DNA from: a virus
Direction: 5' to 3' (one strand)
Length of the DNA: 42,015 nt
IMG/VR virus record: IMGVR_UViG_3300023184_000244
Coordinates: 1-42,015 of that record
The notes beneath the pieces are model-generated. The model ran no database searches. It was given only the letters and a program-made list of their open reading frames with translations, and was not told where the DNA came from. The position numbers and the translations under genes were made by a program. Positions 2,172 through 29,246 of this stretch are shown one piece after another. The number at the start of each line of letters is the position of its first letter. Positions within the stretch are counted from its first letter, which is position 1.

Positions 2172-2192
2172 GCCTCATCATAACACAAAATA

Positions 2193-3010: not shown

Positions 3011-6000
3011 CTACTTTACCGCCCGATTCACCCCCCTCATTACCGCTTCAATCTGCTGATCGATGTCCTTCACTCGATCCTGCCACCCCGGGTCCGCTCG
3101 CAGCTGCTCTTCCCGTCTTAAACGCCTGAGCTTACTTACCGCAGCTTCAGCCTGGTTACCAAGTCCGATCTGATCGACCAGCGGTTCTTGTTTTCGGTAG
3201 GCATCTGCATCTTCACCTACTTTCATGCGGCCTTTGTATTCGTTCTCGATCTTGTTCAAGCGCTTGATGTTGTTATAGAAAAGTTCAGACTCACCAGAGA
3301 TCCCCTTCGTGCTGCCATAAAGCCGCCCAAGTAATGGCACCTTATGTGCGGGTAGTTCATCGCCCGTGAACGGTGCTGTAAGCGTCTGAGCTAATTTTCC
3401 AATCTCCCGCCCCACCCCACCTGTGAGTTGCCCAATCACATAGTCAATCTGATCAGGGGTTGGACTCCACGCACCAGGCTGATAGGCTGTTCCCCCAGAG
3501 ATCGTGTTGATTGCTTGGGCTATGCCTTTGGACCACGGCGTCGCAGCGTCCTTCACAAGTGCCATGCCAGGCTGAGGATTCAGTGGATTATGGTTTTCTC
3601 TATAAATCGGGCGACCCGTCCAGTCTTGGTTTTGCGCCAAGGCCACGGCAGGATCGGCAATCGTGGGCGTGACAAGCTGCGAAACGCTTTGTGAGCCCCC
3701 AAGCGGATTAAAGGCATCAAGCAGCACTTGAAGCAGTTTGCCAAGTTGGCTTGCGGGTGAGTGATCGCGCCCGCCTGCCATCATTTCTACCGAGAGTCTT
3801 CCGATATTGGGTAAGAAGTGAAAGCCTAAGGGCAAGGGAAGCGATAAGTACTCGGTTCTAGAGATAGGAATGATGAGATTTTTTTCTTTCACAAACTCTG
3901 GAATCTTCTCCCAAGCATCATCACCATCATCACCTCCACCCATTAACGCCATAGCGAGCATAGTGTTTACCGCGCCCAACATCACGCCACCTAACATGAT
4001 CTTTCTGCCGAGCGGGCCTGTAAGCGTTTGCGCCAAACGCGCTGTGCCTTGGATTGACGCATTAAAGAAGGCATAAAGTGCACCGATCTCGCGCGACTGT
4101 CGCCCCTTGCGATTAAAGTTAACCGTGAGGTTCTTGGCAAGGCTTGCTGCACGCTCTTGACTCAGCCCGCTGCCAAGTGCCACATCAAAGGCAGCAAGGC
4201 GCACCGCATTTTCCATCGCCTCGTTATAGTCAGAAAGCCAATCAAGAAGAGCGTGTGCCGCATGGCTCACTTGCCCACGCTCAAAGCTTTGAAGCGTTCT
4301 AGCAAGCGCTGCACTGCGCTCAGTGGCATCTGCAAAAAGATCTCGATAGCCTGTGGTGCCGCCTGCAGCTTGCATCTGCAGCCAACGCGCCTGCCAATGG
4401 CTTTGCTCGCCGTCTGATGCGCCACGCTGAGCGCGATAGATGGCTTTCAGAGCGGGCCACACACCTGAAGCCACCTCGCGTTCTTTGCCTGCAATCGCGG
4501 TGGTGCTCAAGTTTAAGAGCCCCGATTGCAAATCGCGCGCAAAGTTAATGATCCCAAAGATTGGGTTGTATTGGGTGTTGATCGATGCAAACCAGCGTGT
4601 GCCTTTGGCGATCAACGAAATCGCTGCATGCAGATCCCCGATATCGAGGTTTTTAATTGATTGAGCGAGCCTAAGCGCTTGAGCGTTGCGCTCATTAAAG
4701 GTAATCGCTGCATCTTTGCCCCCTACCCTAAGCATCACGACATAAGGCAGATTCTTGTAGTTTGGATCCACCATCGTGCGTGCGGTGCCTGTCACCGGAT
4801 CAAGCACCCGCACGGTGGGTGGCTTGTCCACGGCCCAAAGTTCCGAATCAGGGTTTTGTGCAGCCATGAGATAGAGCTTGCGCGTGACGCGATCTTTTTC
4901 ACCACGGGTAACCGCAGCTTCTCGCTGCTGGGCAATATGACCCAAGATGTTGGTCACACGCTCAAGACTTCCCACGCGCTGCCTTGCTGCAGCACCCCGC
5001 ACACTAAAGCCTAAACCGACAGGATGCGCCGTGGTTGTGGGATGGGCTTCATCGCGATGAAGTGGTACATAGTGTTGATAAGCCTTGCGCCAGGCTGCAA
5101 GGGTTTCGGCGTCCATAAGCCCATAGGCTTCAAGCAGCGTGAGTGTTTTCTCATTGATGGCATCAACTTGCGCTGCCGCAGCCTCAAAGCTTTCTCGCTT
5201 TGCCGGATCCACAGCGGCCATAACCGCAGCTGCCGCTTCATCACTCATGCCTGATAACGACAAGCGCTCGGTCTCGGTGCCTTGAAAGGCTTGCACGGTT
5301 GACCATGCACGCTGACGCTCGCGCGCTGCATCAAGTGCTTCAGAGATGGCCTTGGTAGCGGCACCTTGTGCTTGAGCCGATTGGAGTGCTTGCTCAAGCC
5401 TTGCCACTTCTGCTGCCGATTCATTGCGCTGAGCCTCAAGCTCAGCTTCGGAAGGGTTGCGCTTGGCCATCGCGGCATTGGCTTCGGGTGCATGGCGCGC
5501 ATGCAAGTAGCGCTCAAAGTCTGCAAGGGCAATCCCAGCGTCATGCAACGCTTTTAAGAGCGGTGTAAGTTCATGCGATAAGAATCGCTCCACCCGAAAA
5601 GCAAGCCGCTTGTGATAGAGCTCCTCACCCAAGTAAGCATCATTGAGATCGGTAATGACACCACCCATTGAGCGGATGTGATCGCGGATACGTTTTAGAT
5701 CAATGTACTTGTCTTGAAAGTTATAAAGAACGTGATCGAACGCTTGCGGCGTTAAGAGGCTCGCTACGCGGTCTTTAAGCTGTGTCCACGCGTTACGGTT
5801 CGGATCGTTGGGGTTAGTTGTGTTGGGACCGGATGGGTTGGAGCTTGCTGTGTTGGGGCTCGCTGTGTTGGGGCTCGGTGTATTGCTGTTGTCATTTGCA
5901 TCATTCGATTCAGAGCGATCCAGATCACTGAGCGATCCATCGCCCATGTCATAAAGCATCCGCGATGACACAAAATACTCCCCTTCCCCGCTTGTTTGTT

Positions 6001-9000
6001 TCGGATCGAGCAGCCGCTTTAAAGCTCGCAGCAGCGCCGCCTCGGATTCAAGCCCAAGGAGATCTTTCGCTTTTTCAATCAGTTCTGAAAACCAGACTGC
6101 GATCTGCTTCCAAATGCTGTCTTTGGCATCAAAGCGCTTGGCAAGCAGTGCTGAAGCGTTGACCGCCCAGTACTCTGAAGGATTGACCAAGGCATAGTGA
6201 TCTTCATAGTTAAGCGGACCATCCAAGATGGCTTGTCTTAACTGATTGGTCGCTTGGGTGTCGCCAGCCATGGCAAACGGAATCAGTGCGAGTGCCTCAC
6301 GCTCTGCTGTGCTCGCAACCTCAAGTGCAGCGGTGTAGCGCGTGAGCCAAACGCTGCGAATCGCTTCTTGGAAAGCTGTGGGCATCATCCGCTCGGCATG
6401 ATGCAAAAGCTCGTGGACTGCGGTTTCTCTTGCATCTGCGCCTTTAAATAAGCGCATGAGTTGCATGGCAGGGTTGTATTGACCGGCTGTACCGTCCGCT
6501 TTGGGCTTTTGAATGCTGATGGCAAGTTGGCTTGCAAGTGCTGGGTTTTGATCAAGCGCCCACAGTGCAAAGGCCACCGTTTCAGGTTCAAGATCACCTT
6601 GGCGTTGCGCGCGAATGAGTCGCTCGCGAATCTGACCTTCACCGCGCTGTCTTGGGCGCGCTAAACGTTTATCCGATTTAGCTTGCACCACGCCTTGAAG
6701 TGCATCGGAAAGCTTTCTGATCTCACGCTCAAAACCCGCTGCATCAAGGGATCCATCATCAAGCTTGGCAATCAACCCATCTAAGCGCCTGGCTGCTTGC
6801 ACGCGTGGGATCGCTGGCGGATCACTTCCATCGCCATAGCCCTCAAAGGCATAGCGCATGCGTTCCTTGCGCTTTGCCTGGGCTAAATCATTCACCTGCT
6901 GACTTACCCGCGGCATCGTGCCAAGTTCTGCAGCACTTTGCCCTGATGCGAGATCAATCACATCAAGCAACTGAATATCGAGTTTGCCAAGTGCTGAGGC
7001 TAGGTTGCCGATAGCATCTTGATCCATCGCTGAGTTTGGATTGGCAAGCAAGGCCGCTTGAGCACCGGCTTGGGTTGCAGCGTTTATCAGCGCATCAAAG
7101 CGTGCATCGATTCGGAGAGCTTTTGCGTCTTTTGGGTTGATCGGTACAAAGGCTGTCACGCGGTATTGCGCATCGGCAAAGACAATCCCTGGCACACCCT
7201 TAGGTGCAAAGGATCGAATGATGTCCTTGGCTGATTGCGGACCGGTAATCACGGGCATTAAGGCGTTTTGACGAAGAATCGTTCGCTCAGCCATTGGCAC
7301 CTTGACCGAAGGCGCACGAGTGATGAGTTCGCCCTCAATCGTTTGGCCTTGATCATCGACTGCTTGAAAGCGCCCTCGCCCTTGCGCATCCACACCCAGT
7401 GCTGCAAGTCCTTGCCATTGCACAGACGATGGCTCAAAACTTTGACCCAGCGCCCGGCTTAGGTTGCGATCGGCTTGCGAAAGCATCGAGGTGCCGCTTG
7501 GATGGTTATGTACCCCCCAGGCTTTTGCAGCACCCTCAAGGCGAAGCGCTTCGGCAAGCACGGTGTTGGGGTACACCGCTGCCTGATTGATCGCTCCTTT
7601 AAAGCTACCAATCACGGCTAAAGGTTTGCCACTTGCATCCGTGATCAGTACATCGAAATGTTCCACAGCGTATTGGCTGAGTGCTGCCAATGCAGAAGCA
7701 GCATCGGTCCAGTTATTGACACGCGAAACCGGTAAGTCTCTTTCCCCCACGCGCACGAGTTGTGAGCTGTAGTGATAAATCCCAGGCAAGAAGGGATCAG
7801 GCCTAAGGCTTAGCCTTGGTTCAGGCGCAGATGCCCCGTCACTATCAGCCGCCCTAACCGAGCGAGAACGTTTACTTGCCTGGCGAACCTTCGTTTGCAA
7901 GGCCGGTGGAAGCTCTTGAAGACCATCAAGTGATTCAGGAAAAAGATCGGTGGGTAGTGATTGGTCAAAACTTCCAGCACGATCCAAAGGCCCGGGCTCG
8001 CGCAGTAAAGTGTTTTGCTCAAGTTCTTGAGCTAAATCGCTTTGCGAGCCTACATTGGGGTCACGTGTCGAGGAGAGGGAGGAGGGTTGCACCGCAGCCG
8101 CGGGGTCGTAGACGCGAGACGGACCCAAGATAGGGTCGGCTGCTAAGTTCGGTGTTACAGGATTTGCGACCGCACGGCTTGGGCTGTCTGTGTTGACGCC
8201 GGACAGCCCTTTTTCTTGGCTCGCTTGCCCATCGCTTGGAAGAGCGTCGTTGGAGAGCCCGTTGACCGAGCGCAAGTTATCAAGCGCACTGGGCGCATCA
8301 CCGAAAAAGCCTGGCTCAGGTTTGGTTTGCAGTGCTTGCTCGACAAAGGCTTTAAGTTTTGCCGCTACTTTGTCTTTGGCAACAGGTCGGGTTAAAAATT
8401 CGCCTTGATAAAAAAGTTTGACAAGTGCTTGTACCGATTCGTTCGGCGGCTGCCCCGTTTGCAGATCGGGCTGGCGCAAAAGCTCATACAAGGATCGCCG
8501 CTCTTGACGTGCGCGCTTAATCAGCCCTACGGCATCCATTAAGTCGGTGGTGACATCTTGCTTAGAATCAATGGCACCAATCCGTGCGGAGTCGCGCATA
8601 TTGGCCCAGTGACCTGCAACTTGCTTGAGCGCTTCACCGATGCCTTTAATCTCGGTATCCATCGAATCAAAAAGCTCAGCGACAAGATCACTATCATCAA
8701 AGGCAGCTTGGGCAAGTGCAGCTTGGATTCTTGTGCGCCCAGCAGGCGATAGATGGCCTTGCGCATTCATAAGCGTTGCAATATCTTGGCCTGAAGCCGC
8801 CAGTTTGCCGACAAAAGCGCGTACAAAGTCGCGGTTCTCGGCATTGGCGACATCACCGTCTTGATAGGCGGTTAGGACGCTTGAGTCCATCAGCTTGGCA
8901 TCTTGCTTCGCTAACTCCACAGGCGACATCCCTAAGCCTTGTGCCTGACTTTTCTGGGCCATGTTGGCGGTGTTGCTTTGTTCGCTATACACACGAACAA

Positions 9001-10630
9001 GGATGGGGTTAGGCGTTAAGGCAATGGCTGCTGGGTCAATGCCGTGGTTGGCTGCATCGGTAACAAGTTCTGCTTGGTAGATCGATGCTTGACCTTGCGC
9101 ATACGCACCTCGAAGGCCTGCAACGCGCCCGTTATTAAGTGCTTTAAGCGTGCCTGCTTGCTCGGAAGCAAAACCTGCATTGATGCTGCCATCAGCGTGG
9201 TGTGAAGCTTCGACTGAATCAGCTGAGACCACCGCATAGCGAAAAGGTACGCGCTGACCATCAGACATCACTGCGACATCGCTTTTACCAAAATGGCCCT
9301 CGGGTATCGCAGATGCATCATCGCCTTGAGCAAAGACCATCGGTGCACCCGAATCAGGCGTTCGACTCGGCCCAAGCCTAAAGTAATCGGGTGCTCGTGC
9401 AATCGATTGCATTTGCGCTACGGCCGCTAAACGTGATCGATCTCGGTTTTGCAGCGTTGGATCAACCGCTTGATCGCTTTGGTTAGCCGAATCAACGCCT
9501 GGCGCTGCAAGGTTGACATCCGGTAGAACGCTCTGTGATGCATTGCGATCCGTTGAGGACTGCGCGGATGCCTGCTGCGTGTCACTTGGTAGCGTTACAT
9601 CTGACCCTACACGATCTGCCCTTCCCGTCAGATTCATCGAAGCAGCTTGTTCGATGGGCGCTTGCTGGCTACTTGGCCGATCACCGTTGGCACGCTTCAT
9701 CGACCAAAGCGCTTGGGGCACGCTCTGTGAAAGTCCGGCCGCTGATTCAAGCACGGCGCCATACACATCGGGTTTACCTGTGGCTGCAAGCTCACCGAGA
9801 TACTCACCCGTACCCTCGCCCACCGTCTCAAGCGCAACGCCGGTGCCCAGTTGTGCGGCCCGTGTTCCCAAGCCAGGCGCCGATCGTCCGGCTGCAGCAC
9901 CTGCCCGATTCAAAGTCTTGGCAAGCTTGCCACCAAGCCCCAGTGTAGCTGCATCAACGCCAGTAATCACCGCACCTTTGATGGCACCTTCTCTGAGCGC
10001 ATCGTTGCGCTCAGCCGGTGTAAAACCGTCTTGTGCCTTATCAATAGCCTTTGAGCCGGTCTCAAGTGCCGTATTGCCTAAGAACATCCCACCTAAAAAG
10101 CCAGCTGTGCCAAGCACCGGAACGGCAATCGGGGCAAAGGGGCCTGTGAGTGCACCAAGGGCAGCACCTCCCTTAGCACCCGCAACGCCCGTGCCTAGTG
10201 AAACCACGGTGTTGGGTAATTGACTGGCAACAAATTGTGCTGCGCCTGATTTGTTCTCAAGCATCGATGTACCGACATTTTGGATTGCAGACAGCACACT
10301 GGGATCTGAGTCAGCCGCCTTACGTTTGGCAATCTCATCCATCAACGCACGCTGAGCGCTTGGTTGCTGTGTCTGAGCATCGCGCTCAGCCGTTGCCGAT
10401 TTTTCTACACCCGCCCTATCGTCAAGCACCGTATCAAGCGATGCTGAAAGCGATCGGCCCGTGCTCTTTGCACCTTGCCAGATCGCAGAGCCTAGATCGC
10501 TTACTTCATCGGTCAAGCTTCTTAGCTTAGGCGTGGCAGAGATCCCGACTTCGGCAAAGAGATCACGCCCGCCTTGTGCATCGCGGCGAGAAGGTGTGAT
10601 TCCGGCTTCTTGAAAGAGGTCGCGGGGCAT
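3011..10630 (-). CDS. Giant phage polyvalent virion protein (2539 aa), RadC/JAB-like and HELLH domains
   Basis: One uninterrupted 2539-residue frame, the largest gene here and the last of the late region. The N terminus repeats a short tag (DLFQEAGI, DLFAEVGI). Around residues 150-240 it is Gly/Ala-rich and hydrophobic (VPVLGTAGFLGGMFLG). A RadC/JAB-type segment at about 960-1070 carries the metal motif HNHPSG followed by SQAD. Near residue 1407 there is a zincin-like AVHELLHHAERM. Long Ala/Glu-rich helices follow. The C-terminal part (YNPIFGIINFARDLQSGLLNL, then FYNNIKRLNKIENEY) resembles large polyvalent-protein-associated domains. Proteins of this type are known to be packaged and injected with phage or conjugative DNA, where they act on host defences or DNA. 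The exact substrate here is unknown. It forms its own block behind motif site 10662-10672, 31 bases upstream. An IS66 copy lies 8 bases past the stop. Confidence 0.85.
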   Translation of the reverse strand: MPRDLFQEAGITPSRRDAQGGRDLFAEVGISATPKLRSLTDEVSDLGSAIWQGAKSTGRSLSASLDTVLDDRAGVEKSATAERDAQTQQPSAQRALMDEIAKRKAADSDPSVLSAIQNVGTSMLENKSGAAQFVASQLPNTVVSLGTGVAGAKGGAALGALTGPFAPIAVPVLGTAGFLGGMFLGNTALETGSKAIDKAQDGFTPAERNDALREGAIKGAVITGVDAATLGLGGKLAKTLNRAGAAAGRSAPGLGTRAAQLGTGVALETVGEGTGEYLGELAATGKPDVYGAVLESAAGLSQSVPQALWSMKRANGDRPSSQQAPIEQAASMNLTGRADRVGSDVTLPSDTQQASAQSSTDRNASQSVLPDVNLAAPGVDSANQSDQAVDPTLQNRDRSRLAAVAQMQSIARAPDYFRLGPSRTPDSGAPMVFAQGDDASAIPEGHFGKSDVAVMSDGQRVPFRYAVVSADSVEASHHADGSINAGFASEQAGTLKALNNGRVAGLRGAYAQGQASIYQAELVTDAANHGIDPAAIALTPNPILVRVYSEQSNTANMAQKSQAQGLGMSPVELAKQDAKLMDSSVLTAYQDGDVANAENRDFVRAFVGKLAASGQDIATLMNAQGHLSPAGRTRIQAALAQAAFDDSDLVAELFDSMDTEIKGIGEALKQVAGHWANMRDSARIGAIDSKQDVTTDLMDAVGLIKRARQERRSLYELLRQPDLQTGQPPNESVQALVKLFYQGEFLTRPVAKDKVAAKLKAFVEQALQTKPEPGFFGDAPSALDNLRSVNGLSNDALPSDGQASQEKGLSGVNTDSPSRAVANPVTPNLAADPILGPSRVYDPAAAVQPSSLSSTRDPNVGSQSDLAQELEQNTLLREPGPLDRAGSFDQSLPTDLFPESLDGLQELPPALQTKVRQASKRSRSVRAADSDGASAPEPRLSLRPDPFLPGIYHYSSQLVRVGERDLPVSRVNNWTDAASALAALSQYAVEHFDVLITDASGKPLAVIGSFKGAINQAAVYPNTVLAEALRLEGAAKAWGVHNHPSGTSMLSQADRNLSRALGQSFEPSSVQWQGLAALGVDAQGRGRFQAVDDQGQTIEGELITRAPSVKVPMAERTILRQNALMPVITGPQSAKDIIRSFAPKGVPGIVFADAQYRVTAFVPINPKDAKALRIDARFDALINAATQAGAQAALLANPNSAMDQDAIGNLASALGKLDIQLLDVIDLASGQSAAELGTMPRVSQQVNDLAQAKRKERMRYAFEGYGDGSDPPAIPRVQAARRLDGLIAKLDDGSLDAAGFEREIRKLSDALQGVVQAKSDKRLARPRQRGEGQIRERLIRAQRQGDLEPETVAFALWALDQNPALASQLAISIQKPKADGTAGQYNPAMQLMRLFKGADARETAVHELLHHAERMMPTAFQEAIRSVWLTRYTAALEVASTAEREALALIPFAMAGDTQATNQLRQAILDGPLNYEDHYALVNPSEYWAVNASALLAKRFDAKDSIWKQIAVWFSELIEKAKDLLGLESEAALLRALKRLLDPKQTSGEGEYFVSSRMLYDMGDGSLSDLDRSESNDANDNSNTPSPNTASPNTASSNPSGPNTTNPNDPNRNAWTQLKDRVASLLTPQAFDHVLYNFQDKYIDLKRIRDHIRSMGGVITDLNDAYLGEELYHKRLAFRVERFLSHELTPLLKALHDAGIALADFERYLHARHAPEANAAMAKRNPSEAELEAQRNESAAEVARLEQALQSAQAQGAATKAISEALDAARERQRAWSTVQAFQGTETERLSLSGMSDEAAAAVMAAVDPAKRESFEAAAAQVDAINEKTLTLLEAYGLMDAETLAAWRKAYQHYVPLHRDEAHPTTTAHPVGLGFSVRGAAARQRVGSLERVTNILGHIAQQREAAVTRGEKDRVTRKLYLMAAQNPDSELWAVDKPPTVRVLDPVTGTARTMVDPNYKNLPYVVMLRVGGKDAAITFNERNAQALRLAQSIKNLDIGDLHAAISLIAKGTRWFASINTQYNPIFGIINFARDLQSGLLNLSTTAIAGKEREVASGVWPALKAIYRAQRGASDGEQSHWQARWLQMQAAGGTTGYRDLFADATERSAALARTLQSFERGQVSHAAHALLDWLSDYNEAMENAVRLAAFDVALGSGLSQERAASLAKNLTVNFNRKGRQSREIGALYAFFNASIQGTARLAQTLTGPLGRKIMLGGVMLGAVNTMLAMALMGGGDDGDDAWEKIPEFVKEKNLIIPISRTEYLSLPLPLGFHFLPNIGRLSVEMMAGGRDHSPASQLGKLLQVLLDAFNPLGGSQSVSQLVTPTIADPAVALAQNQDWTGRPIYRENHNPLNPQPGMALVKDAATPWSKGIAQAINTISGGTAYQPGAWSPTPDQIDYVIGQLTGGVGREIGKLAQTLTAPFTGDELPAHKVPLLGRLYGSTKGISGESELFYNNIKRLNKIENEYKGRMKVGEDADAYRKQEPLVDQIGLGNQAEAAVSKLRRLRREEQLRADPGWQDRVKDIDQQIEAVMRGVNRAVK

Positions 10631-14355: not shown

Positions 14356-14433
14356 ATGAAGTGGGGTGTCTACAACATCCGCACCGAGATGGACTCGGTA
14401 CAAGAGCGATTACGGCGATTTGTGATCAATTAG
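14356..14433 (+). CDS. Possible 25-codon forward-strand small ORF
   Basis: ATG at 14356 to TAG at 14433 encodes 25 residues beginning MKWGVYNIRTEMDSV, with a natural-looking amphipathic composition. It overlaps the convergent 14426 gene by 8 bases. It occupies the same place behind a motif copy as the forward-strand cargo genes at the other four sites, which is the main reason to list it. No clear ribosome binding site is present. It may equally be a remnant of a larger gene. Confidence 0.25.
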   Translation: MKWGVYNIRTEMDSVQERLRRFVIN

Positions 14434-14899
14434 ATAACGCACCCTTTGAAAATGCCTGGGTATCGACTTCGGGCCAGATTAGCTGGTAGGGATCTTCTTG
14501 TAGCGTGATGTCTCGCAGCGCCTGGCGATAGGCCTGCCAAGCAGTAAAGCGCGCTTCACCTAAACGTGTTCGGGCAGAGAGCGTATCGGTCCAATCCGAA
14601 GCGCTTAACTTTTGGTTGCGCTCACGGCGTACGACGGACCAAGCAAGTACCTCGTCCTTCACCCAGCACTTTTGACCGTAGTCAAAGCGCATCATCGGGT
14701 GAGGCGCCTCGCCCATGGGTAGCACTTCACCGTCTTTCACATAAGCCTCAAAGGCAATCACCGGTTCATGCCAGGATAGTCGCGTTAAGCCCTCTGGGGT
14801 TTCTTGGGCATCACACAGCGATGCGCTTCCCACGACGCATTGTCGAATCTTCCCTTGCTCGTCATGAAAGATAACGCTCACGGTTTCGCCATCGCTCAT
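14426..14899 (-). CDS. Phage fibre-associated / tail assembly chaperone-like protein (157 aa)
   Basis: I place the start at 14899 (MSDGETVSVIFHDEQGKIR) because its ATG overlaps the fibre gene's stop as ATGA. The longer frame to 15007 only reads into the fibre gene. The C-terminal part (ARTRLGEARFTAWQAYRQAL, RDITLQEDPYQLIWPE) is the kind of ending seen in phage tail-fibre assembly chaperone-like proteins. Its coupling to a fibre gene supports that reading. It is the last gene of the long capsid-tail block. Confidence 0.65.
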   Translation of the reverse strand: MSDGETVSVIFHDEQGKIRQCVVGSASLCDAQETPEGLTRLSWHEPVIAFEAYVKDGEVLPMGEAPHPMMRFDYGQKCWVKDEVLAWSVVRRERNQKLSASDWTDTLSARTRLGEARFTAWQAYRQALRDITLQEDPYQLIWPEVDTQAFSKGALSN

Positions 14900-17532
14900 C
14901 GCATCGCTCCCATCGCAAGCAAGATGATGTCGTAATAAGCGCCGTTGGCTCCGCCACCTGCAAAGGTGATGAGCGTATTGGCGGGTGGCGTAAAGTGCGC
15001 CACACAAACCAGTTGCTGACTGGTATTGGGGTTATAACCCGGAATGCGATAAAGCCAGGTGAAGACGCCGTTTAAAGAATAGCCAATCCCTGCATCAGTC
15101 GTTGGTAACGGTCCAACAATCCCTGCCGACCACTTCATGGCCATCCAAAGCATCACGGGTGATGACACGGGAAGTGTCATATCAAGGCTCACAAAAACCG
15201 CTTGGCTTGCCGATGCCATCACGGGGATGGTGACTGCATTGCCTTTAATGCGAAGCGTATCAACCGCTGCCTCAGCGATCTTGGCCGTTGTAATACTCGC
15301 TTGACCAATGCGTGCTGCATCGATTGTGCCCGAGGTGATCACCGCTGCACTTAAATTGGCGATCTTGGCATCAAGCGAGCCTGACGAGATTCGGTCAGCG
15401 CTAAGGGTGCCGGCTGTGATTTTTTCGGCACTTAAGCTTGCAATCTTGGCATTATCGATGGCTGCGTCGCTGATCTTTGCGCTCGTGATCGTACCGTTCT
15501 TAATAAACGCACCGTCCATATAAACGCCTGCAGGAACGGCTACGCCATTGACCGTCTGTGCGCTTGTGGTGACGGTAAAAGGAACAATCGGTGAAAGCGC
15601 TGGGCCACTCGGATTGGCAATCGAAAAGCGATCCGCGCGGACGATAAAGTCTGAAACCGTGGCACCGTTAATCGCTGTTGACGCTAAGCCAAAGCCTGCC
15701 ACATACCCATTGGCATCGATCTTAACGGTGTACTGGCCTTTGAGTCCTGTAATGCTGCTTGCAGAAGACGCAAGCGATTGCTCAACGGTAACACCTGCAC
15801 CGCCTGCGCTATTGAGCCTTGCTGTGACTGCTGTGTAGTCTTGAGCGGCTGCTGCAGCCGAATTCGCGGCATTGGTTGCTGACACAGAAGCTTGATTTTT
15901 GTAAGTCCCGGCGTTGGCCTCACTCGTTGAAGCTTGCGTTGCAGCGTTGCTTGCACTGATCGCCGATTGCCCTGCTTCAGAGGCTTTGGTACTTGCACTA
16001 CTTGCCGAAGTTGCAGCAGCTGAGGCACTCACTTGCGCTGCATCGCGTGCGGATTGGGCAGCTACTTTGGCGCTTGTTGATGCACTGGATGCGGTCTCAG
16101 CACTTGTGGCATAGCTTGATGCGTTACTTGCACTGGTTGCAGCCGAGCTTGCCGAGTTGCCCGCGTTGGTCGCAGCTTGTGATGCAGTCGCAGCACTCGT
16201 TGCAGCTTCTGACGCCGAGCCTGCGGCACTGGTTGCTGAGCTTGATGCTTGGCTTGCACTGGTACTGGCGTCGCTCGCTTTGGTGCTTGCTTGGGTGGCA
16301 TTTTGTTGAGCCGCAGATGCGCTTTGCGCTGCCTCAGTTGCTTTGGTTGTTGCAGTGTTTGAGGCACTCGTTGCAGCACTTGCCTTACCGCTTGCCTCAT
16401 CGCGCGCCGATTCCGCAGAAAGCTTGGCTGCGTTGGAGGCGCTTGATGCCGTTTCTGCGGCTGTGGCGTAACTTGACGCTTGTGCCGCAGCGCTAGCCGC
16501 AGCGCTTGCCTTGCCTTGAGCAAGGTTTGATGACTCGCTTGCGAGTTGCGCTTTTTGAGAGGCCGTAGAAGCTGAACCTGCAGCACTGGTAGCAGACTCT
16601 GAGGCCTGGCTTGCAAAGCCTGAGGCATTTGCCTGTGCGGTTTGAGCCTGTGTTCTAAAGCCTTGCGCTTCGTCTTTAGCCGTCTGCGCCCCGCTTTGCG
16701 CTGCGATAGCGGCAAGCTTTGCACTGACTGCATCACTGGCTGCTTGAATCGCTGAAACGTTGGCAGAAGATGCACCCGCTGCAGCCAGTAAAGCCTCGGT
16801 TGCAGATTGGGCAGAGGCCGCAGCACTACTTGCTGATGAGACCGTTGAACCGAGCGCAGCTTGCACATCGCCAAGCTGCTTAACGAGCCCCGAAGTCGGA
16901 TCATCAATCAGATCAATGCGTTGCCCTAAACTTTCAAACAATTCGGTTTCAGTGATCGAGCCTTGCAACACTTCAAGTAAGGCTTGAACATCCTCTCCCG
17001 TGCGTGCCTCAATCCCATGGGTGCCACCTGCAGGAAGCGATTGCACCCCATCGACACTTTCCCAGGTGATCCAAAGCCGCCAAGTGGTTGCGGGGTTCGA
17101 GGCCAAAGCAAAGATCTGCCCAGAAAATTGGGCAAGTTCAATGGCTTGTGCAAAGCTTGGTAAAAGCTCATCCGTGATAGTTCGCCCAAAGAGTCTTGTT
17201 CGCAGATGACCATGCCCTTGGGTGTAGGTTGCAGCATCGTGCTCAATGAGCACATGGCTGATTGCGCCTGTGGCCTTAAATCCCGTCGGAATCGGCGGAG
17301 AGCTTAAATCAGGCGTATCGGTTTGAGGTTGAAGTTCAATGGGAGGGATTGAAGCACCCGACCAAGTGAATCCCTTTTTGAGTCGCACAATCCCCGCATC
17401 GACCAGATCGCGGATGGTGATCCCACGATCAAGCGGATCGCCTTGGCGCCCAAGATAGGTCATGAGCGTTTCGCGCACGCGATGTGAAAAGTTGGGCGCC
17501 GTGGTGGAAGGCAAGTCGGTACGTGTCGTCAT
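14896..17532 (-). CDS. Long Ala/Ser-rich tail fibre protein (878 aa)
   Basis: A fibre in three parts. The N terminus (about 1-220) is globular and probably attaches to the tail (TYLGRQGDPLDRGITIRDLVDAG). Residues about 230-570 are almost entirely Ala, Ser, Thr, Gln and Asn in helical repeats (ASSATSAAGSASEAATSAAT), the extended trimeric coiled-coil shaft common in phage fibres. The C terminus has the host-specificity-type segment (ITSAKISDAAIDNAKIASLS, ITAGTLSADRISSGSLDAKI) followed by a likely receptor-binding tip. The start is the ATG at 17532; a TTG at 17544 overlapping the previous stop is an alternative. The fibre most likely contacts the host surface. Confidence 0.85.
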   Translation of the reverse strand: MTTRTDLPSTTAPNFSHRVRETLMTYLGRQGDPLDRGITIRDLVDAGIVRLKKGFTWSGASIPPIELQPQTDTPDLSSPPIPTGFKATGAISHVLIEHDAATYTQGHGHLRTRLFGRTITDELLPSFAQAIELAQFSGQIFALASNPATTWRLWITWESVDGVQSLPAGGTHGIEARTGEDVQALLEVLQGSITETELFESLGQRIDLIDDPTSGLVKQLGDVQAALGSTVSSASSAAASAQSATEALLAAAGASSANVSAIQAASDAVSAKLAAIAAQSGAQTAKDEAQGFRTQAQTAQANASGFASQASESATSAAGSASTASQKAQLASESSNLAQGKASAAASAAAQASSYATAAETASSASNAAKLSAESARDEASGKASAATSASNTATTKATEAAQSASAAQQNATQASTKASDASTSASQASSSATSAAGSASEAATSAATASQAATNAGNSASSAATSASNASSYATSAETASSASTSAKVAAQSARDAAQVSASAAATSASSASTKASEAGQSAISASNAATQASTSEANAGTYKNQASVSATNAANSAAAAAQDYTAVTARLNSAGGAGVTVEQSLASSASSITGLKGQYTVKIDANGYVAGFGLASTAINGATVSDFIVRADRFSIANPSGPALSPIVPFTVTTSAQTVNGVAVPAGVYMDGAFIKNGTITSAKISDAAIDNAKIASLSAEKITAGTLSADRISSGSLDAKIANLSAAVITSGTIDAARIGQASITTAKIAEAAVDTLRIKGNAVTIPVMASASQAVFVSLDMTLPVSSPVMLWMAMKWSAGIVGPLPTTDAGIGYSLNGVFTWLYRIPGYNPNTSQQLVCVAHFTPPANTLITFAGGGANGAYYDIILLAMGAMR

Positions 17533-17540
17533 CGCTGCAC

Positions 17541-19235
17541 TCAAACCTGCGCCAGTTCTTCCACGCTTGTAGCAAGTGCCACGGATTGCACGGGGTTTGT
17601 GCCTTCGATATCAACTTGCCATTGCTGCGCTAAAAAGCCTGCAGGCAAGCGCTGCGCTTCAGGTCCTGTGATTGAAACGGTATAGCGAAGGCTTGTGGCG
17701 GTGGGCGCAGACACGCAAGCACCCAAGCGCTGACTCAAACTTGTGACCGTGCTTGAGCTTAGATCCAAAGCATCGACCTTCACGGTCACGGGATAGGCGT
17801 CGGCGTGCACTTCAAGGCATGAAAAATTAATCGGTTGTGGGGCTCGAAACACTTTGGAGCGAAAGCGATAAGTCAGTGGCGTTGTGCTCCCATCAAAGCG
17901 CTGAATGTTTGCGCCTGAAAGCCCATAGAGTTGATCTTGAAGCGGATCCACATGAAGTGCTGTGAAGCCAGCATCAAAAAAATAAATCCCACTTGTAGAA
18001 GCTGGATCGATCAAAAAGCCACGGCGACCCGAGCCATCATCAAAACTTCCTAAATAGAGCCCCTCGTAGTAAGCCCCAATGATCGTGGCTGGCTTTAAGG
18101 CTTGCCAATCGGCTCTTGTCATGATGCCTGCAGTGATAAGCCTTGCACCGCCTTGGCCGATCCAGCAAAGGCCATCTTCTGAGGCCCAAGCCACCCCAGA
18201 ACCCATGCTAACCACCGAGCGTGGCGCCACACATGCTTGCGGTAAATCCATCAACTGCTGATCCATCGCATCAGGGCTTGACCCAGATACGATCAGCGGT
18301 CTGCCGTTGGTTAGCACCACCAACTGTTGTCCAAAAACACCCAAGGCCACAGGCTTTGAATCAGGCGGTATGAGGTCATAGCTCTGCGGCCAGGCATAAG
18401 CGACATAAGGCTCACAAAAACGAATGCGATTCCCCGAAATGCCTGTAAGCATCCCATTCCAAAGTGCTGTGAGCTGAGATAAATCTTCGGGTGGCATCGC
18501 CCAAGAAACGGTGGGACAAACTTCGCCAAGATCGCGCAAATCATCGGTCGTACTTTGGGTGCCAAGCGCAATCTCACGCAAAAAGTAAAAGTCCGTTGCG
18601 CCACTTGAGCCCGTGGCCGTTCGGTAAATCCGAAGCCGGTTAATCGCATAGTTACCTGAAGGCGGAAGCGCAAAACCAGCAAGCGTTGCTTGCGCATCGC
18701 TTGGCCGATTGCTTTCCGTACTCACAGGACTTGGAGCACTCTCCCAACCCCAATCATTCACATAGGTGTAGACGTAATAGCTCGAAATAAGCTCACCTGT
18801 GCCGCCTTGAAGCGTTGTCACCGTTAAAGGTGAACTTGGTGCAGGTAGTCCGAGCGGCCTTGATGCAGTGGGAAAGTTTGATATGGGCGAAGGTGCAGTG
18901 CCAAGGCCCATCACGTTATCGGTGACTTTCGGTGCACCATCACCGCTATAGTAAGTGCGCTCGGTGGTATCGCCCGGATCAAAGCCTCGCACCGCGTGTA
19001 CAACACTTGGCCACGATAGCCAATACTGTGCGTCAGACGCTACATCGCGTCCCATGCGATACATGCTGCTGCGCCCGGCTGGCACGGTTGCTATGGTTTG
19101 TGGTGCGTTCCAACTTCTTAGATCACCCCTGCCTGGCCGCTGATTGCGACTGACGGTTGCTTGGTGCTCGGCAAGTAAGCTTGGGTGCAGCGCGCGGTTT
19201 TCACCCGAAAAGCCTGCGATACGGATCAGTGCCAT
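17541..19235 (-). CDS. Phage tail/virion protein (564 aa)
   Basis: I chose the ATG at 19235 (MALIRIAGFSGENRALHPSL), 5 bases past the halogenase stop, over the longer frame to 19307. Proteins with this opening (IRIAGFSGENRALHP) are common among tail genes of Burkholderiales podoviruses. The middle shows paired-domain-like strands (SYYVYTYVNDWGWESAPSPV, YAINRLRIYRTATG), suggestive of fibronectin-like beta sandwiches and a propeller-like repeat. No enzyme motif is seen. It is probably a tail knob or tubular component connecting head-tail proteins with the following fibre. Its function is inferred from position. Confidence 0.7.
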   Translation of the reverse strand: MALIRIAGFSGENRALHPSLLAEHQATVSRNQRPGRGDLRSWNAPQTIATVPAGRSSMYRMGRDVASDAQYWLSWPSVVHAVRGFDPGDTTERTYYSGDGAPKVTDNVMGLGTAPSPISNFPTASRPLGLPAPSSPLTVTTLQGGTGELISSYYVYTYVNDWGWESAPSPVSTESNRPSDAQATLAGFALPPSGNYAINRLRIYRTATGSSGATDFYFLREIALGTQSTTDDLRDLGEVCPTVSWAMPPEDLSQLTALWNGMLTGISGNRIRFCEPYVAYAWPQSYDLIPPDSKPVALGVFGQQLVVLTNGRPLIVSGSSPDAMDQQLMDLPQACVAPRSVVSMGSGVAWASEDGLCWIGQGGARLITAGIMTRADWQALKPATIIGAYYEGLYLGSFDDGSGRRGFLIDPASTSGIYFFDAGFTALHVDPLQDQLYGLSGANIQRFDGSTTPLTYRFRSKVFRAPQPINFSCLEVHADAYPVTVKVDALDLSSSTVTSLSQRLGACVSAPTATSLRYTVSITGPEAQRLPAGFLAQQWQVDIEGTNPVQSVALATSVEELAQV

Positions 19236-19240
19236 CGGTG

Positions 19241-20677
19241 TTAGACCCAAGCTGAAGAGCGACATGGCCTTAGCCCAGACCCCATGAGCAGTGCCGTATA
19301 GGACCAACCGTGAAACATGCCATAGCGTCGACCGGTGAGTGCACGAAAACGCTCCTCCTCGGTGAGCGCTTGTGGATCGTTGTGAAACGCTTTGATCATC
19401 GCCTCCAGGGCTTTAGACCTTGGCGAGTTGGCATAGTCTTTCCAAAATGCCGTATCGCTGCGGGCCGTCAATTGATAGTGCGCTTGAACAAAATCCAGCA
19501 CATCGTCGTGCTGCTCTCGCATTTCTGTATTAAAGCGCTCGCGCAGTAATGCCAACGGTACGTGGTGTGCACCGAGGTATTGCGCAAGCAGCATTGCAGC
19601 ATAATGACCCAAGGCAATGGCCGTGCTTTCAATCGGTTCGCAGAAAAAACCGCTTAATCCGATGGCGACAACATTCTGATGCCACAGGTGGGGTCGGAAA
19701 CCCGTCTTAAACCGCACAAGGCGCGGCTCAATAACTTGCGCCTCATAACCCCAGCGACTGACCAGATGAGCGATTAGCTCAGTCTTGGCCTCGTTGAGAT
19801 CGATATAGCGGCTTGCGTGAATATAGCCCGTACCGATGCGGCTACCAAGCGGGATGTGAAACACCCAGCCCGCACTTAAACCATGGCAATGGGTCAGATT
19901 CAGTTGTTGCCTTGCTTGATCGATATAGGGCAACTGAACCACCCAGGCCTGATCCACAAGGAGCCTGTCTGCCACCGAAACCCAAGGCGAACGCACAGCG
20001 CTTGCAAGGATGGCGGCAAAGCCTGTGCAATCGATATAAAGATCGGCGCAAAGCGTATGACCGCCATCGATAAGGATGCTTGAAACCGCACCATGATCAT
20101 CGCAGCGTACCTGTGCAATCGTTGCATCAAGCACTTGAACGTTTTCGCGTGCAAGCACTTCTTGTTTCAGCAACGCTGCGTACTTCAAGGCATCAATGTG
20201 AAAGGCTCCTCCTCCACCATGCGCCGCAACGCGATAGCGTTCAAACCAAGTGCTTCGCTCGATAAAGCCCGCCGCTAACTTGGCTCCTGCCCAGGTCTGC
20301 TCAGTTGCAAAGGCCCACTGATCGGGAGCACTTGCAAGCCGACCATCGCTCAAGGCCCGGCCCAACTGCACCCGATCGATATCGGCTGCGTCTAAGAAGG
20401 GGTGTAGCCAGCGTTGGCCTTGTTGATAAAAGTCTTCAAAGGCAATACCAAGCTTCACGGTGGCATCGACCGCTTGAGCCCAACGCTGGGTTTGCAAGAC
20501 GGGAAGTGCCATGGCCTTATGGGCCAAATGCAGATGGGGCAGCGTACTTTCACCGACTCCAATGGTTGGGATCGTGCTTGGGTCCAGTACCGTGACATGC
20601 AGTGCGGGGTTGGCTGAAAGGATCGCAGCGGTCGACCAGCCAGCCGTACCGCCACCGGCGATAAGGATGTGACGCAT
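19241..20677 (-). CDS. Flavin-dependent halogenase (tryptophan halogenase family)
   Basis: 478 residues, slightly shorter than PrnA/RebH-type tryptophan halogenases. The FAD-binding motif is AGGGTAGW at residues 7-14. VGEST follows at about 41-45. Lys75 in VKLGIAFEDF aligns with the catalytic Lys79 of the family, IDCTGF lies at 215-220, and GFFCEPIEST (343-352) carries the conserved Glu. The signature WxWxIP reads WVFHIP at 271-276, with Phe at the second Trp. The family uses reduced FAD, oxygen and halide to make HOX, which is relayed to the Lys and chlorinates, brominates or iodinates an aromatic substrate. The flavin reductase it needs is not in this window. It sits between tail genes; the ATG at 20677 overlaps the previous stop as TGATG (a GTG at 20680 is possible). 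The substrate is unknown. Confidence 0.85.
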   Translation of the reverse strand: MRHILIAGGGTAGWSTAAILSANPALHVTVLDPSTIPTIGVGESTLPHLHLAHKAMALPVLQTQRWAQAVDATVKLGIAFEDFYQQGQRWLHPFLDAADIDRVQLGRALSDGRLASAPDQWAFATEQTWAGAKLAAGFIERSTWFERYRVAAHGGGGAFHIDALKYAALLKQEVLARENVQVLDATIAQVRCDDHGAVSSILIDGGHTLCADLYIDCTGFAAILASAVRSPWVSVADRLLVDQAWVVQLPYIDQARQQLNLTHCHGLSAGWVFHIPLGSRIGTGYIHASRYIDLNEAKTELIAHLVSRWGYEAQVIEPRLVRFKTGFRPHLWHQNVVAIGLSGFFCEPIESTAIALGHYAAMLLAQYLGAHHVPLALLRERFNTEMREQHDDVLDFVQAHYQLTARSDTAFWKDYANSPRSKALEAMIKAFHNDPQALTEEERFRALTGRRYGMFHGWSYTALLMGSGLRPCRSSAWV

Positions 20678-21090
20678 CACGACCAGTCGATAGCTTCGCG
20701 CGCTCTTGCGCGGGCTTGCGTGATGTCCTCGGGCACGGGTTTACCTGTTTCGAGTTGCCGAATCACATACCAATCGGTGCTCGCGAGGTAATCGATGAGG
20801 CGTCTGCTTTCGGCATATCGCCGGCTCCTTGTTTCATCAACCGTAAGGCCTTCGAGAAATCCGCTCACTTCAGCTACTTCCTCTGGGGTCATCTCCCGGC
20901 TTACCCCATCGCGCATGTAGCTACGAACGTTCATCGAAAACTGCAGCGCATCGTAGGCGAAGGAAAAGATCGGTCGGGTCGGTCCCGATATATGTCTACC
21001 CCCTCGCATGATGGATACATTCGCGCGTGGGTCCATCGGAATAATCATCATGGGGGCATCGTTGGGCTGGATGGCTGCTTCATCGGGCAT
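20677..21090 (-). CDS. Small phage protein coupled to the halogenase (137 aa)
   Basis: A 137-residue protein with no membrane helix. The C-terminal half (SRRLIDYLASTDWYVIRQLE, then TGKPVPEDITQARARAREAI) is the ending found on many phage tail-fibre assembly or tail-associated proteins, where the STDWYVIR..TGKPVPEDI pattern recurs. It has a good ribosome binding site (AAGGAG, 9 bases before the ATG), and its stop overlaps the halogenase start, so the two are translated together. It could be a fibre chaperone or a partner that brings the halogenase to its target. The second idea is speculation. Confidence 0.65.
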   Translation of the reverse strand: MPDEAAIQPNDAPMMIIPMDPRANVSIMRGGRHISGPTRPIFSFAYDALQFSMNVRSYMRDGVSREMTPEEVAEVSGFLEGLTVDETRSRRYAESRRLIDYLASTDWYVIRQLETGKPVPEDITQARARAREAIDWS

Positions 21091-21133: not shown

Positions 21134-21595
21134 TCAGTAGTAATAGGCCCAGTAGGAGGTGTCGATCCATCGGTAGTAGGAGGTGTCAACCCAGTAAGGT
21201 CCTGGATCGACGTAGATCGATACTGGGTCGTCGTAGTACCACTGCCAAAGTTCGCCATAGCCATAAAAGCCCGTGACGGTAAGCCAACCCTGATAGCTAC
21301 TTGGCCACTGAGCGAAGTAAGGGTTCAGAAGCCCCCAGGACCAGTCCACGCCAAACACCTGAGCTGCTGCGCCGCCCCCCGAGGTATCCCACCAACCGGT
21401 CTTTCGCCCATAGAGCGTGTCGTAATAGCCCGGTGGGTCATACCAGTAGCCTTGGCTGACGTATTGGTTATAGCCCGATGACACCCACACGCGCTCCCAG
21501 AGCCTTGCGCCATTGCTACGGTTTAACCGGTTAAAGGCTGAGCCGTTCCCGACAAGGTAGGTGAGTTGGGCAAAGTTGATTGCAACTGAGGGCAT
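21134..21595 (-). CDS. Trp/Tyr-rich phage protein (153 aa)
   Basis: I do not recognise this family. Of 153 residues, 14 are Trp and 22 are Tyr, about a quarter of the protein. It is also rich in Gly, Ser and Asp, and has almost no Lys. The C terminus carries short near-repeats (YWVDTSYYRW then IDTSYWAYYY). There is no signal peptide. Its place among fibre-like genes suggests a virion surface or tip protein that could bind sugars or polymers by aromatic stacking. It is two genes upstream of a halogenase whose family acts on tryptophan and other aromatics, so it is a conceivable substrate. That link rests only on composition and neighbourhood. Confidence 0.6.
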   Translation of the reverse strand: MPSVAINFAQLTYLVGNGSAFNRLNRSNGARLWERVWVSSGYNQYVSQGYWYDPPGYYDTLYGRKTGWWDTSGGGAAAQVFGVDWSWGLLNPYFAQWPSSYQGWLTVTGFYGYGELWQWYYDDPVSIYVDPGPYWVDTSYYRWIDTSYWAYYY

Positions 21596-21604
21596 CTGAG
21601 GCCC

Positions 21605-22171
21605 CTACCAGTTGATGGTCAGCGTTGAGCCACTCACTGAAAAGGTGGCACCCACGGGACCTTGCGCACCCTGTGGACCTTGAGGGCCCTGCGGCCCTTG
21701 CGCCCCTTGAACGCCTTGGGGTCCTTGATTGCCCTGAGGACCTTGAGCGCCATTGGCGCCATTCGTACCATTGGCACCAGCGACGCCTTGAGGTCCCCGA
21801 ATTTGTGCCACCACCGCTGCAGGAATCGGTTGCGAACCGTTAAGCCAGGCTGCACCGGCATTGTTCACCGCCGTTACTTGCGCGGTCCCTGCCGAATTGA
21901 CGTCGCTGACCTTTGCAGTGCCTGCGCTATTTATCGCAGTGAGCTGGGTCGTACCTGCAGCGTTCACCGCATTCACCTTGGCCGTCCCCGCATCATTCAC
22001 AGCCGCCACTTGAGTGGTGCCTGCAGCATTCACCGATGAAACATTGGCATTACCAATGGATGATTCAGAGGCCTTGGCAAGCAGCAAGAGCTCAGTCGCG
22101 GTGGTTGATCCCGAGACACCATTTAAGCGCGCCTGAAGCGTATTGCTATAAGTTGTAAAGTCAACGGGCAT
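21605..22171 (-). CDS. Collagen-like tail fibre protein (188 aa)
   Basis: The start is the ATG at 22171 with GAGGTGAG ahead. The N-terminal third is a helical attachment region ([20 protein letters not shown]). Residues about 45-115 hold a repeat of roughly 12 residues ([33 protein letters not shown]). A collagen-like Gly-X-Y stretch of some 50 residues follows ([20 protein letters not shown]), then a short beta tip ([11 protein letters not shown]). Bacteriophage collagen-like segments form trimeric rods, so this is probably a thin fibre or spike. Confidence 0.8.
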
Positions 22172-22179
22172 CACTCACC

Positions 22180-23030: not shown

Positions 23031-24662
23031 TCAGAAGTACTGGCGCTTGCCCACGTAATCGGCTGCAAAAAAGGCAGGATCAACTGCGTAACTTTGTTGA
23101 TCCCAAAAGCCGCTATCGGTCATGACCACTGCATCACTGGACCGCTTGCTTGAGGCCATCTCGCGCCAATCGAACATGGCAACGCCATCCATGCGCAGCA
23201 CATTGCCATGCTTGGTGAGTTGCTCGAGTGCCAGGCTTCGGTCGGCAAGCGAAGACCCAAGTCCCCTTTGGAGTCGGTCGCTTAATCGCAGCCCATCGGT
23301 TCGCAAGCCGCCTGTGGCGCGCATCAACGCATCGTTCACACCGAGGGTGTCAACCGTCAAGCGACGCTCTAAAAATCGTACCGATGCATTAACGATTGAA
23401 ACACTCTCGAATGCTTGACGGTGCAGTTCACGCCGATACGCCTCGCTCAGTATGGCTTGCTCTGGGGCTTTCTTGGTACTTTCAAGCCCGACGCGATCAG
23501 ACGCAAAACTTGCATCAGCGACAAGTTTTGATGGGCTTTGCGCTATGTGATCGGCAATCGATGCTCGCTCATAAAACTCACGGATAAATCCAATCGATCG
23601 AATCAGCGTATCGACAAGTCCGAATGTTTCGTGAGAGCCCTTTGTCGCAGACTTAAGTGCCCTATCCTGCAAAGCAATCCCGTCTGTCGCTTGCTTTGCA
23701 AAGCCTAGCTCGCTGCGATCACGGGCTTGCAAAGCATTTTGCTTCGTTTTACTTGATTCTTTAAGCGCCAGATCGTTAACGAGGCTGCCATCGAGAAGTC
23801 TGCGATCAAAGGCAAGCGTCACCTGTTCAAGGCCTTGAAGTACTTCAAGGAGCGGCTTTGTAAACCTTCCTTGACTTTGGTCATCGAGCCGCGCGCCATC
23901 GACTCTTTGCTGATCGAGTGCAAGCTTGATCGCAACGCGCAACGTTGCCCAATCCTGAAATAGTCGTGTGAAACCCACGGAGCGCACAAGGCTCTCGTTC
24001 ACAGCCACAAGGTGCTGAACCTGCTTAAAAAAAGCAACTTCCTGATCGTCCTCAGCAGATGAGGCACCGTCCGTATCGTCCGTGACCGCAAGCCGATCGG
24101 CTAAAAGCTTGGTCAGTGCGAAAACCGCTTCAGCATTGATGCGTGGGGCTTCTGCGATGGACTTGCGAAAATCATCGCAAAGTCGATCGATAGCTCGCGC
24201 TAAGTCTTTTGAATCTTTTCCCGTGTGTTTGGCTTCGTGGTCGAGCAGTCGTACGACTTCAACAAGTGGCCTTTCAAGCGCAAAATAGGCCCAACTTGCA
24301 AGGGATGGGTGTTCGCTCAGTGCTCGCTCAAACGCAAGCCATGCATCGTCAGAAAAGATGGCTTGATCGACTGACTGCTTATCAAAGTTGCGCGTTGGGT
24401 GATCAGCCATGACGGCTTGATCGCTCCCATAACGCTCTAAAAGCCAAAGGGCGTGCTCCATCGCCCTGGTCTCGTCAACATCTGGCCTTTGCAGTTTGCG
24501 GCTTACATGATCGTCAAAATCGACAGTTTCATCACGAAAAAGCGCCAGGATAAACTGCCCTACTTCTTGGGTGAGCTGCCATAGCGATGCACGCACCTCG
24601 ACAGCCATCGCAGTACTTTCATAGGCAGCCTTGATCGCTTGCCAGGCTGCATGCAGCTTCAC
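23031..24662 (-). CDS. Phage structural protein with degenerate Asp/Leu repeats (543 aa)
   Basis: I do not recognise a named family. The 543-residue sequence is a series of degenerate repeats of roughly 15-25 residues, each with an Asp-containing turn and a Leu/Arg helix (VNDALMRATGGLRTDGLRLS, DRLQRGLGSSLADRSLALEQ). The C terminus is aromatic (AVDPAFFAADYVGKRQYF). A regular helical repeat and a place between a baseplate-like gene and the fibres suggest a rod or hub part of the tail. It begins with GTG at 24662, overlapping the previous stop as GTGA. Confidence 0.65.
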   Translation of the reverse strand: MKLHAAWQAIKAAYESTAMAVEVRASLWQLTQEVGQFILALFRDETVDFDDHVSRKLQRPDVDETRAMEHALWLLERYGSDQAVMADHPTRNFDKQSVDQAIFSDDAWLAFERALSEHPSLASWAYFALERPLVEVVRLLDHEAKHTGKDSKDLARAIDRLCDDFRKSIAEAPRINAEAVFALTKLLADRLAVTDDTDGASSAEDDQEVAFFKQVQHLVAVNESLVRSVGFTRLFQDWATLRVAIKLALDQQRVDGARLDDQSQGRFTKPLLEVLQGLEQVTLAFDRRLLDGSLVNDLALKESSKTKQNALQARDRSELGFAKQATDGIALQDRALKSATKGSHETFGLVDTLIRSIGFIREFYERASIADHIAQSPSKLVADASFASDRVGLESTKKAPEQAILSEAYRRELHRQAFESVSIVNASVRFLERRLTVDTLGVNDALMRATGGLRTDGLRLSDRLQRGLGSSLADRSLALEQLTKHGNVLRMDGVAMFDWREMASSKRSSDAVVMTDSGFWDQQSYAVDPAFFAADYVGKRQYF

Positions 24663-28651: not shown

Positions 28652-28951
28652 CTAAGCGATCAAGAGCGGGCACCTTTGGATGGTAGCTAGCTGCTTGCGA
28701 AGCGCCGCCTTAGCCACGGCTGTGTCATAGGCGACCTGCCCCCGCAACCACCAACCGTCGCTCAGTCCAAAGTAGCGACAAAGCCGAAGGTCCGTGTCGG
28801 CTGTGATTGCGCGCTTACCAGAAACAATCTCGCCGATCCGCTGGGCTGGCACGCCGATATCCTTTGCGAGGCGGTACTTCGTAAGACCCAGCGGCTTGAG
28901 AAACTCTTCTTCAAGCATTTCGCCGGGCGATACAGGTAGAACAGTACGCAT
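28652..28951 (-). CDS. higA: HigA-type antitoxin
   Basis: 99 residues. The N-terminal half is a helix-turn-helix of the HigA/XRE type (KPLGLTKYRLAKDIGVPAQR, IGEIVSGKRAITADTDLRLC, RYFGLSDGWWLRGQ). Antitoxins of this family bind and neutralise the HigB RNase and repress their own operon. It follows the toxin gene by 13 bases, the typical higBA order with the toxin first. Confidence 0.9.
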   Translation of the reverse strand: MRTVLPVSPGEMLEEEFLKPLGLTKYRLAKDIGVPAQRIGEIVSGKRAITADTDLRLCRYFGLSDGWWLRGQVAYDTAVAKAALRKQLATIQRCPLLIA

Positions 28952-28964
28952 AACTTCTCTTCCT

Positions 28965-29246
28965 TCAGTGATAGTCGACGATCTCTACGTTCGCAGCCCC
29001 ATCCGATGTCCAGACGAAACAAACACGCCATTGCCCATTGATACGGATGCTGTGCTGACCCTTGCGATCATCTTTGAGCGCTTCAAGTCCATTGCCAGGC
29101 GGTACCTTCAGATCCTCAAGGACGGTGGACCAGTCCAGCTGCGCCAGCTTGCGAAGGGCAGAACGCTCAATGTTTACCCATCGTCTGACGCGTTTACCCT
29201 CAAAGAGTGCCTGGGTGTCTTTGCACTTGAAGCTTTTGATAGTCAC
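28965..29246 (-). CDS. higB: HigB-type toxin (RelE superfamily)
   Basis: 93 residues with the RelE/HigB fold outline (FEGKRVRRWVNIERSALRKL; GLEALKDDRKGQHSIRINGQ; WRVCFVWTSDGAANVEIVDY). Conserved Arg, Lys and Trp in the C-terminal strands are as in mRNA-cleaving HigB toxins. The start is a GTG at 29246 just behind a strong promoter (29255-29283). It lies inside the capsid gene cluster, between the scaffold-like and major capsid genes, an unusual place for a toxin pair. Confidence 0.9.
   Translation of the reverse strand: MTIKSFKCKDTQALFEGKRVRRWVNIERSALRKLAQLDWSTVLEDLKVPPGNGLEALKDDRKGQHSIRINGQWRVCFVWTSDGAANVEIVDYH

Follow-up and report, generated by a model that had tools for sequence, protein, structure and literature searches.

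What might a flavin-dependent halogenase (FDH) act on when it is encoded within a phage tail operon? The question is raised by a 42,015-base contig of IMG/VR, the whole of which is called the window here. The structure of phage halogenases such as VirX1 has been solved and they act broadly in vitro, but the studies cited here name no natural substrate for them. Earlier ideas on the function of phage FDHs include antibiotic protection of the host (PMC2984593) and changed metabolites (PMC10452541).

The halogenase gene and its phage setting

Five genes of the window lie in the order collagen-like, Tyr/Trp-rich, assembly-like, halogenase and then gp63 homolog, and the second to fourth of these form the trio, or cassette, discussed throughout:

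21605..22174, minus strand: collagen-like tail protein with GPQG repeats (Pfam Collagen, E 9e-10)
21134..21595, minus strand: Tyr/Trp-rich protein of 153 aa, candidate halogenase substrate by its composition and conserved position by the FDH
20677..21090, minus strand: small tail-fiber-assembly-like protein of 137 aa, second member of the trio (PHROG 4912 and 27919)
19241..20677, minus strand: FDH, variant A, PF04820, 478 aa (Pfam, PHROG, PDB relatives and AF2/Foldseek)
17541..19235, minus strand: homolog of gp63, the Lessievirus 'internal virion protein', at the 3′ edge of the exchanged block (PHROG 511, E 6e-138)

A preliminary description, made from the letters of the window, had recognized an FDH and its open frame here and gave no strand. 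The frame is on the minus strand, where 478 codons run from an ATG across 19241-20677; the plus strand of the same interval has 11 stops. The enzyme family was identified correctly, as Pfam Trp_halogenase (PF04820) matches residues 5-475 with E 1.1e-93 and 315 bits (cut-off 21) and the PHROG 'tryptophan halogenase' matches with E 9.5e-94. Among PDB sequences, solved FDHs match with a best E of 7.8e-59 (5.6e-54 for VirX1). The structure prediction that had been proposed as a check agrees: the AF2 model has a mean pLDDT of 90.6, and its top 50 Foldseek hits in the PDB are FDHs without exception (E ~1e-37, TM 0.75-0.84). A dN/dS of 0.14 against the relative with 80% identity indicates purifying selection on the gene.

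The motifs named in the preliminary description are all present. The flavin-binding GxGxxG near the N-terminus is GGGTAGW (residues 8-14) and is kept in relatives. Lys75 falls in the aligned column of the catalytic Lys79 of PrnA/RebH and is invariant across 76 other viral and 77 bacterial FDHs, and Glu350, the active-site Glu of the EPxEST motif (here EPIEST), is nearly invariant across the same set. Judged by family, residues and fold, the window gene is an intact variant-A FDH with predicted activity.

The change in the WxWxIP motif is also as first described. The motif reads WVFHIP (W271-V-F273-H-I-P), and Phe in place of the second Trp is confined to one subclade made up of the window, L002, L003, L094 and L098; it occurs in 0 of the 76 other viral and 0 of the 77 bacterial FDHs. 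The window enzyme also has Ala where most viral FDHs have Gly, and the two substitutions could alter its chemistry. WxWxIP has been proposed to prevent monooxygenation (PMC8407142), which raises the possibility that an enzyme with the changed motif oxidizes a tail protein without halogenating it, for instance by Tyr/Trp hydroxylation or cross-linking. The restriction of the Phe to a single subclade would fit such a specialization, but Lys75 and Glu350 are retained, Trp to Phe is a conservative change, the more distant trio members L096, L099 and L248 keep the Trp, and the motif varies or is missing in some active FDHs (PMC8407142). We consider oxidation of this kind quite improbable, and halogenation is the chemistry assumed below.

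The location in a tail operon is confirmed as a podoviral structural and tail operon. The window carries a P22-like portal, a phage lysozyme, an integrase and a PHROG major head protein, and the gp63-like gene has 169 phage relatives by tblastn, with the best in Burkholderia Lessievirus; together these genes point to a temperate podovirus related to that genus. Homologs of gp63 in Burkholderiales reach only 31-38% identity. As in the window, the Lessievirus phages BcepMigl and BcepIL02 have a gp63-like internal virion protein, an acetyltransferase and a DarB-like giant protein in order. Unlike the window, they have tail fibers in front of gp63, at the place of the cassette, and none of the 65 phage records that gave an FDH match is a Burkholderia phage. 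A 2,539-aa polyvalent protein (3011-10630, minus strand) with ddrB-ParB, RadC and LPD38 domains stands in the window where Lessievirus has its DarB-like antirestriction gene. Beside this protein is a complete-looking IS66-type transposon of three genes (417-2929, minus strand), which may mark an insertion into a prophage or the edge of the phage part of the contig. Elsewhere, a HigB-like toxin with a helix-turn-helix (HigA-like) partner lies within the structural gene cluster (28652-29246, minus strand).

Around the halogenase the genes are tightly packed. The overlap with the upstream tail gene that had been described is a single base (TGATG), shared by the stop of the assembly-like gene and the start of the halogenase, and the gp63 homolog starts five bases past the halogenase stop. 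All five assembly-like members match PHROG 4912 'tail fiber assembly' (window E 6e-6) and also PHROG 27919; Pfam has no match to the assembly-like protein, which leaves the tail-fiber-assembly assignment weak. It is distinct from a second tail assembly chaperone-like protein at 14426-15007 on the minus strand (Phage_tail_APC, E 1.4e-11). Rfam and tRNA scans of the window gave no matches, and promoter- or terminator-like sites in the operon were found at chance level only. Neither a flavin reductase gene nor a biosynthetic gene beside the halogenase was recognized among the genes examined, in agreement with the preliminary description. Among the matches listed, the best bacterial FDHs are 27-35% identical to the window halogenase, so no recent bacterial donor was found.

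Distribution and exchange of the three-gene cassette

The Tyr/Trp-rich, assembly-like and FDH genes keep a constant order across the eight phage contigs found to carry them (the window, L002, L003, L094, L098, L096, L099 and L248); these represent about five separate lineages, on which the association of the FDH with its partner rests. Either protein leads to the other. Queries with the Tyr/Trp-rich protein fetched L002, L003, L094/L095, L096 and L098/L178, and its L099 version fetched L248. In every locus fetched in this way the halogenase lies two genes downstream, separated from the Tyr/Trp-rich gene by the assembly-like gene, and L096 and L248 were fetched by the Tyr/Trp-rich protein alone, the FDH beside it being seen afterwards. 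When the search starts from the halogenase, the partner is present with each of the nearest viral FDHs (80%, 45%, 39% and 38% identity) and absent from the next in line (34% and below). The cassette halogenases are monophyletic with 100/100 support, and the Tyr/Trp-rich partner lies beside every FDH found of this clade. Among 13,585 ORFs, profiles A7 and A8 (A8 being the assembly-like protein) match nowhere outside trio loci. By gene content, L099 and L248 are distant, large phages of another kind than the window podovirus: L099 encodes an ATP-dependent DNA ligase, both carry short-tail-fiber-like genes, and a gene common to the two resembles genes of 286-kb Pseudomonas phages.

Pairwise comparison of related contigs reveals how the cassette is inherited. 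The DNA of L098 and L094 is 92-95% identical on both sides of the trio, whereas at ~6.6-9.4 kb of L098 there are only scattered weak matches to L094. The same holds for the proteins, with 97% identity for the gene before the collagen-like gene and 93% for gp63, vs. 32% for the Tyr/Trp-rich protein, 45% (aa) for the halogenase and no blastp hit for the assembly-like protein. The breakpoints lie inside the collagen-like gene and at the halogenase end, and nucleotide homology resumes at the gp63 homolog. L003 and L094 share only positions 2436-5228 of L003 (2.8 kb), at 96% nucleotide identity and between unrelated flanks, and this block runs from where the collagen-like gene starts to where the halogenase ends. 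By its backbone L094 groups with L098; by its cassette it groups with the window (80% vs. 45%). On these alignments the trio is exchanged between phages as one block. Upstream, a 543-aa repeat-rich gene (23031-24662 on the minus strand of the window, 3929-5560 in L098 and 4094-5725 in L094) is 48-72% identical vs. 90-99% for its neighbors and is likely, by its sequence divergence, a second hypervariable tail gene.

Neighbors in a tail-fiber hotspot can be exchanged jointly, by hitch-hiking, without acting on each other. The halogenase might then be an auxiliary metabolic gene that acts on a small molecule of the host or the environment (e.g., indole, tryptophan or a signal), with the tail operon providing late expression and tail-fiber exchange the means of carriage. 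Reviews usually class phage FDHs as auxiliary metabolic genes and tie halogenases to small-molecule chemistry, and VirX1 accepts many small aromatics in vitro. Against this stand the lack of a recognized biosynthetic gene beside the halogenase, the identical three-gene order shared by podoviruses and other phages that encode a ligase, and the two-way fetching between the FDH and the Tyr/Trp-rich protein; moreover, an enzyme of small molecules need not co-diverge with one tail protein. A small-molecule role seems rather unlikely to us. The preliminary description had left the target as a virion or host molecule. That the halogenase moves between phages in a single cassette with the assembly-like protein and the Tyr/Trp-rich partner favors the first of these, a virion (tail) protein.

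The Tyr/Trp-rich protein as candidate substrate

Within the cassette, the Tyr/Trp-rich protein is the favored candidate: a small tail-locus protein, almost a quarter Tyr plus Trp, that is inherited with its halogenase. Its 153 residues in the window include 22 Tyr and 14 Trp (23.5%), and the other window genes counted have at most 6.2%. Partners in the other contigs bring the length range to 139-183 aa, and their C-termini are aromatic throughout (DTSYWAYYY in the window, and DNSYWAYYY, DTSHYVYFY, TNTYSVWNYF and TTDYDVWDWFG). Pfam and PHROG searches with the protein matched no family, and its AF2 model is poor (pLDDT 39). The gene has a dN/dS of ~0.1. Tyr/Trp positions are kept more often than others in each of three comparisons, namely 33/36 vs. 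83/117 between the window and L003 (P 0.007), 18/20 vs. 81/153 between L099 and L248 (P 0.001) and 16/30 vs. 31/109 between L098 and L096 (P 0.01), a pattern that is supportive only, as Tyr and Trp generally evolve slowly.

The protein was absent from INPHARED phages. A profile of it recovers seven known phage records; across 399 genomes of Burkholderiales and 369 of the class, its single match was marginal (E 9e-4) and was rejected on account of five stops inside it.

Taken together, these patterns in the sequences lead us to a reading for which we estimate a probability of about 0.6: a working FDH of a tail-tip cassette halogenates Tyr and/or Trp of its Tyr/Trp-rich partner. In the mechanism that we infer, from the presence of the partner in the virion and its role as substrate to the halogenation chemistry and the effect on the phage, the phage would make a collagen-like fiber and the small Tyr/Trp-rich tail protein. 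The assembly-like protein would probably handle folding or attachment and help to mount the partner on the tail. A host flavin reductase would supply FADH2, and the halogenase, taking halide and O2 as well, would generate HOX, which would pass to Lys75 and deliver the halogen to Tyr/Trp of the partner, either ahead of virion assembly or in the course of it. With halogen on its aromatic surface, the partner might then alter adhesion, stability or receptor choice.

The target could also be another virion protein (the collagen-like fiber, the assembly-like protein or the gp63 homolog) or a host receptor, with the Tyr/Trp-rich protein serving as a sugar-binding, receptor-binding tip. Aromatic-rich protein surfaces are common in carbohydrate binding, and the collagen-like gene opens the exchangeable block in the L002/L003/L094 lineage and travels with it there. 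Yet the collagen-like gene is without a clear counterpart in L099 and L248, where the Tyr/Trp-rich protein has one, and the exchanged block does not include the gp63 homolog. We rate these other targets as highly improbable and retain the Tyr/Trp-rich protein as the candidate substrate.

Relation to other viral halogenases and to known exchange and modification systems

Viral FDHs outside the cassette clade are without a Tyr/Trp-rich protein. A Gly-rich adhesin-like ORF does occur within four genes upstream in 31/71 of their loci with upstream genes, vs. 4/72 downstream (P 5e-8), and after clustering at 70% identity in 20/48 vs. 4/49 (P 1e-4). Of 122 scanned, the -1/-2 neighbors of these FDHs include tail fiber assembly (9), tail fiber (9 and 8), 2OG-Fe(II) oxygenase (17 and 11) and a second FDH (13), counts in which some proteins are possibly scored under two families. 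With such adhesin-like and tail neighbors, found also at the VirX1 locus of Syn10, an association of viral FDHs with tail genes seems to be general, and from gene neighborhoods the Tyr/Trp cassette looks like one sharp form of it. The 2OG-Fe(II) oxygenases common beside viral FDHs (L101-L177 loci) possibly contribute a further step of tail-protein modification.

The gene content and order of the cassette suggest that some phages attach halogen atoms to proteins of their own tails. More broadly, and only tentatively, at slightly less than even odds, self-contained, exchangeable phage tail cassettes may carry a dedicated FDH that halogenates or oxidizes the aromatics of a virion adhesin, so that a covalent halogen on an entire protein tunes host interaction, with the FDHs behind Gly-rich adhesins, including VirX1, acting alike. 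This wider reading would give the orphan phage halogenases, including that of the VirX1 locus, a common role. If the reading of the cassette itself is right, it would be virus-encoded halogenation of a virion protein, for which we know of no precedent in phages. Viral FDHs would then count as enzymes that modify tails and no longer as metabolic genes, and the cassette would provide a natural protein halogenase supplied with its own substrate.

VirX1, cited in the preliminary description as a viral precedent, is a real one, and in Syn10 it too lies behind tail adhesin-like genes. Its published motif residues identify it as CPUG_00131, which stands in tandem with a second FDH, CPUG_00132 (L006, 5923-9028); two FDHs in a row also occur in other cyanophages, e.g., S-RIM44 (L008). 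Our FDH tree includes CPUG_00132 (row L006VirX1) and not VirX1, and CPUG_00132 does not belong to the cassette clade but groups with other viral FDHs. Like the window enzyme, VirX1 and CPUG_00132 are phage variant-A FDHs that retain the catalytic Lys and Glu and immediately follow tail adhesin-like genes and the gene of a small protein. They are 31-33% identical to the window halogenase and have WVWNIP and ESTG or ESNG in place of WVFHIP and ESTA, and the genes that precede them are Gly-rich and adhesin-like, not Tyr/Trp-rich as in the window.

Phage tail fibers and their Tfa chaperones are exchanged as modules in a similar way, in that a tail protein and an assembly-like protein are swapped as a block between similar phages. 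The cassette differs from them in having a halogenase as a fixed third member. The closest parallels for the chemistry are MibH, SrpI and ChlH, FDHs that halogenate Trp in ribosomal peptides and, in the case of ChlH, also some proteins (PMC12615548, PMC12518702). None of the studies cited here describes an FDH that acts on a virion protein. MibH, SrpI and ChlH serve natural-product pathways in RiPP clusters, whereas the partner in the window is a phage tail-locus protein and the cassette has no recognized leader, protease or other RiPP enzyme. They adjoin the gene of a Trp-containing peptide substrate and halogenate peptide side chains (PMC12615548, PMC12518702); such a peptide has the place that the Tyr/Trp-rich partner would take in the window as candidate substrate.
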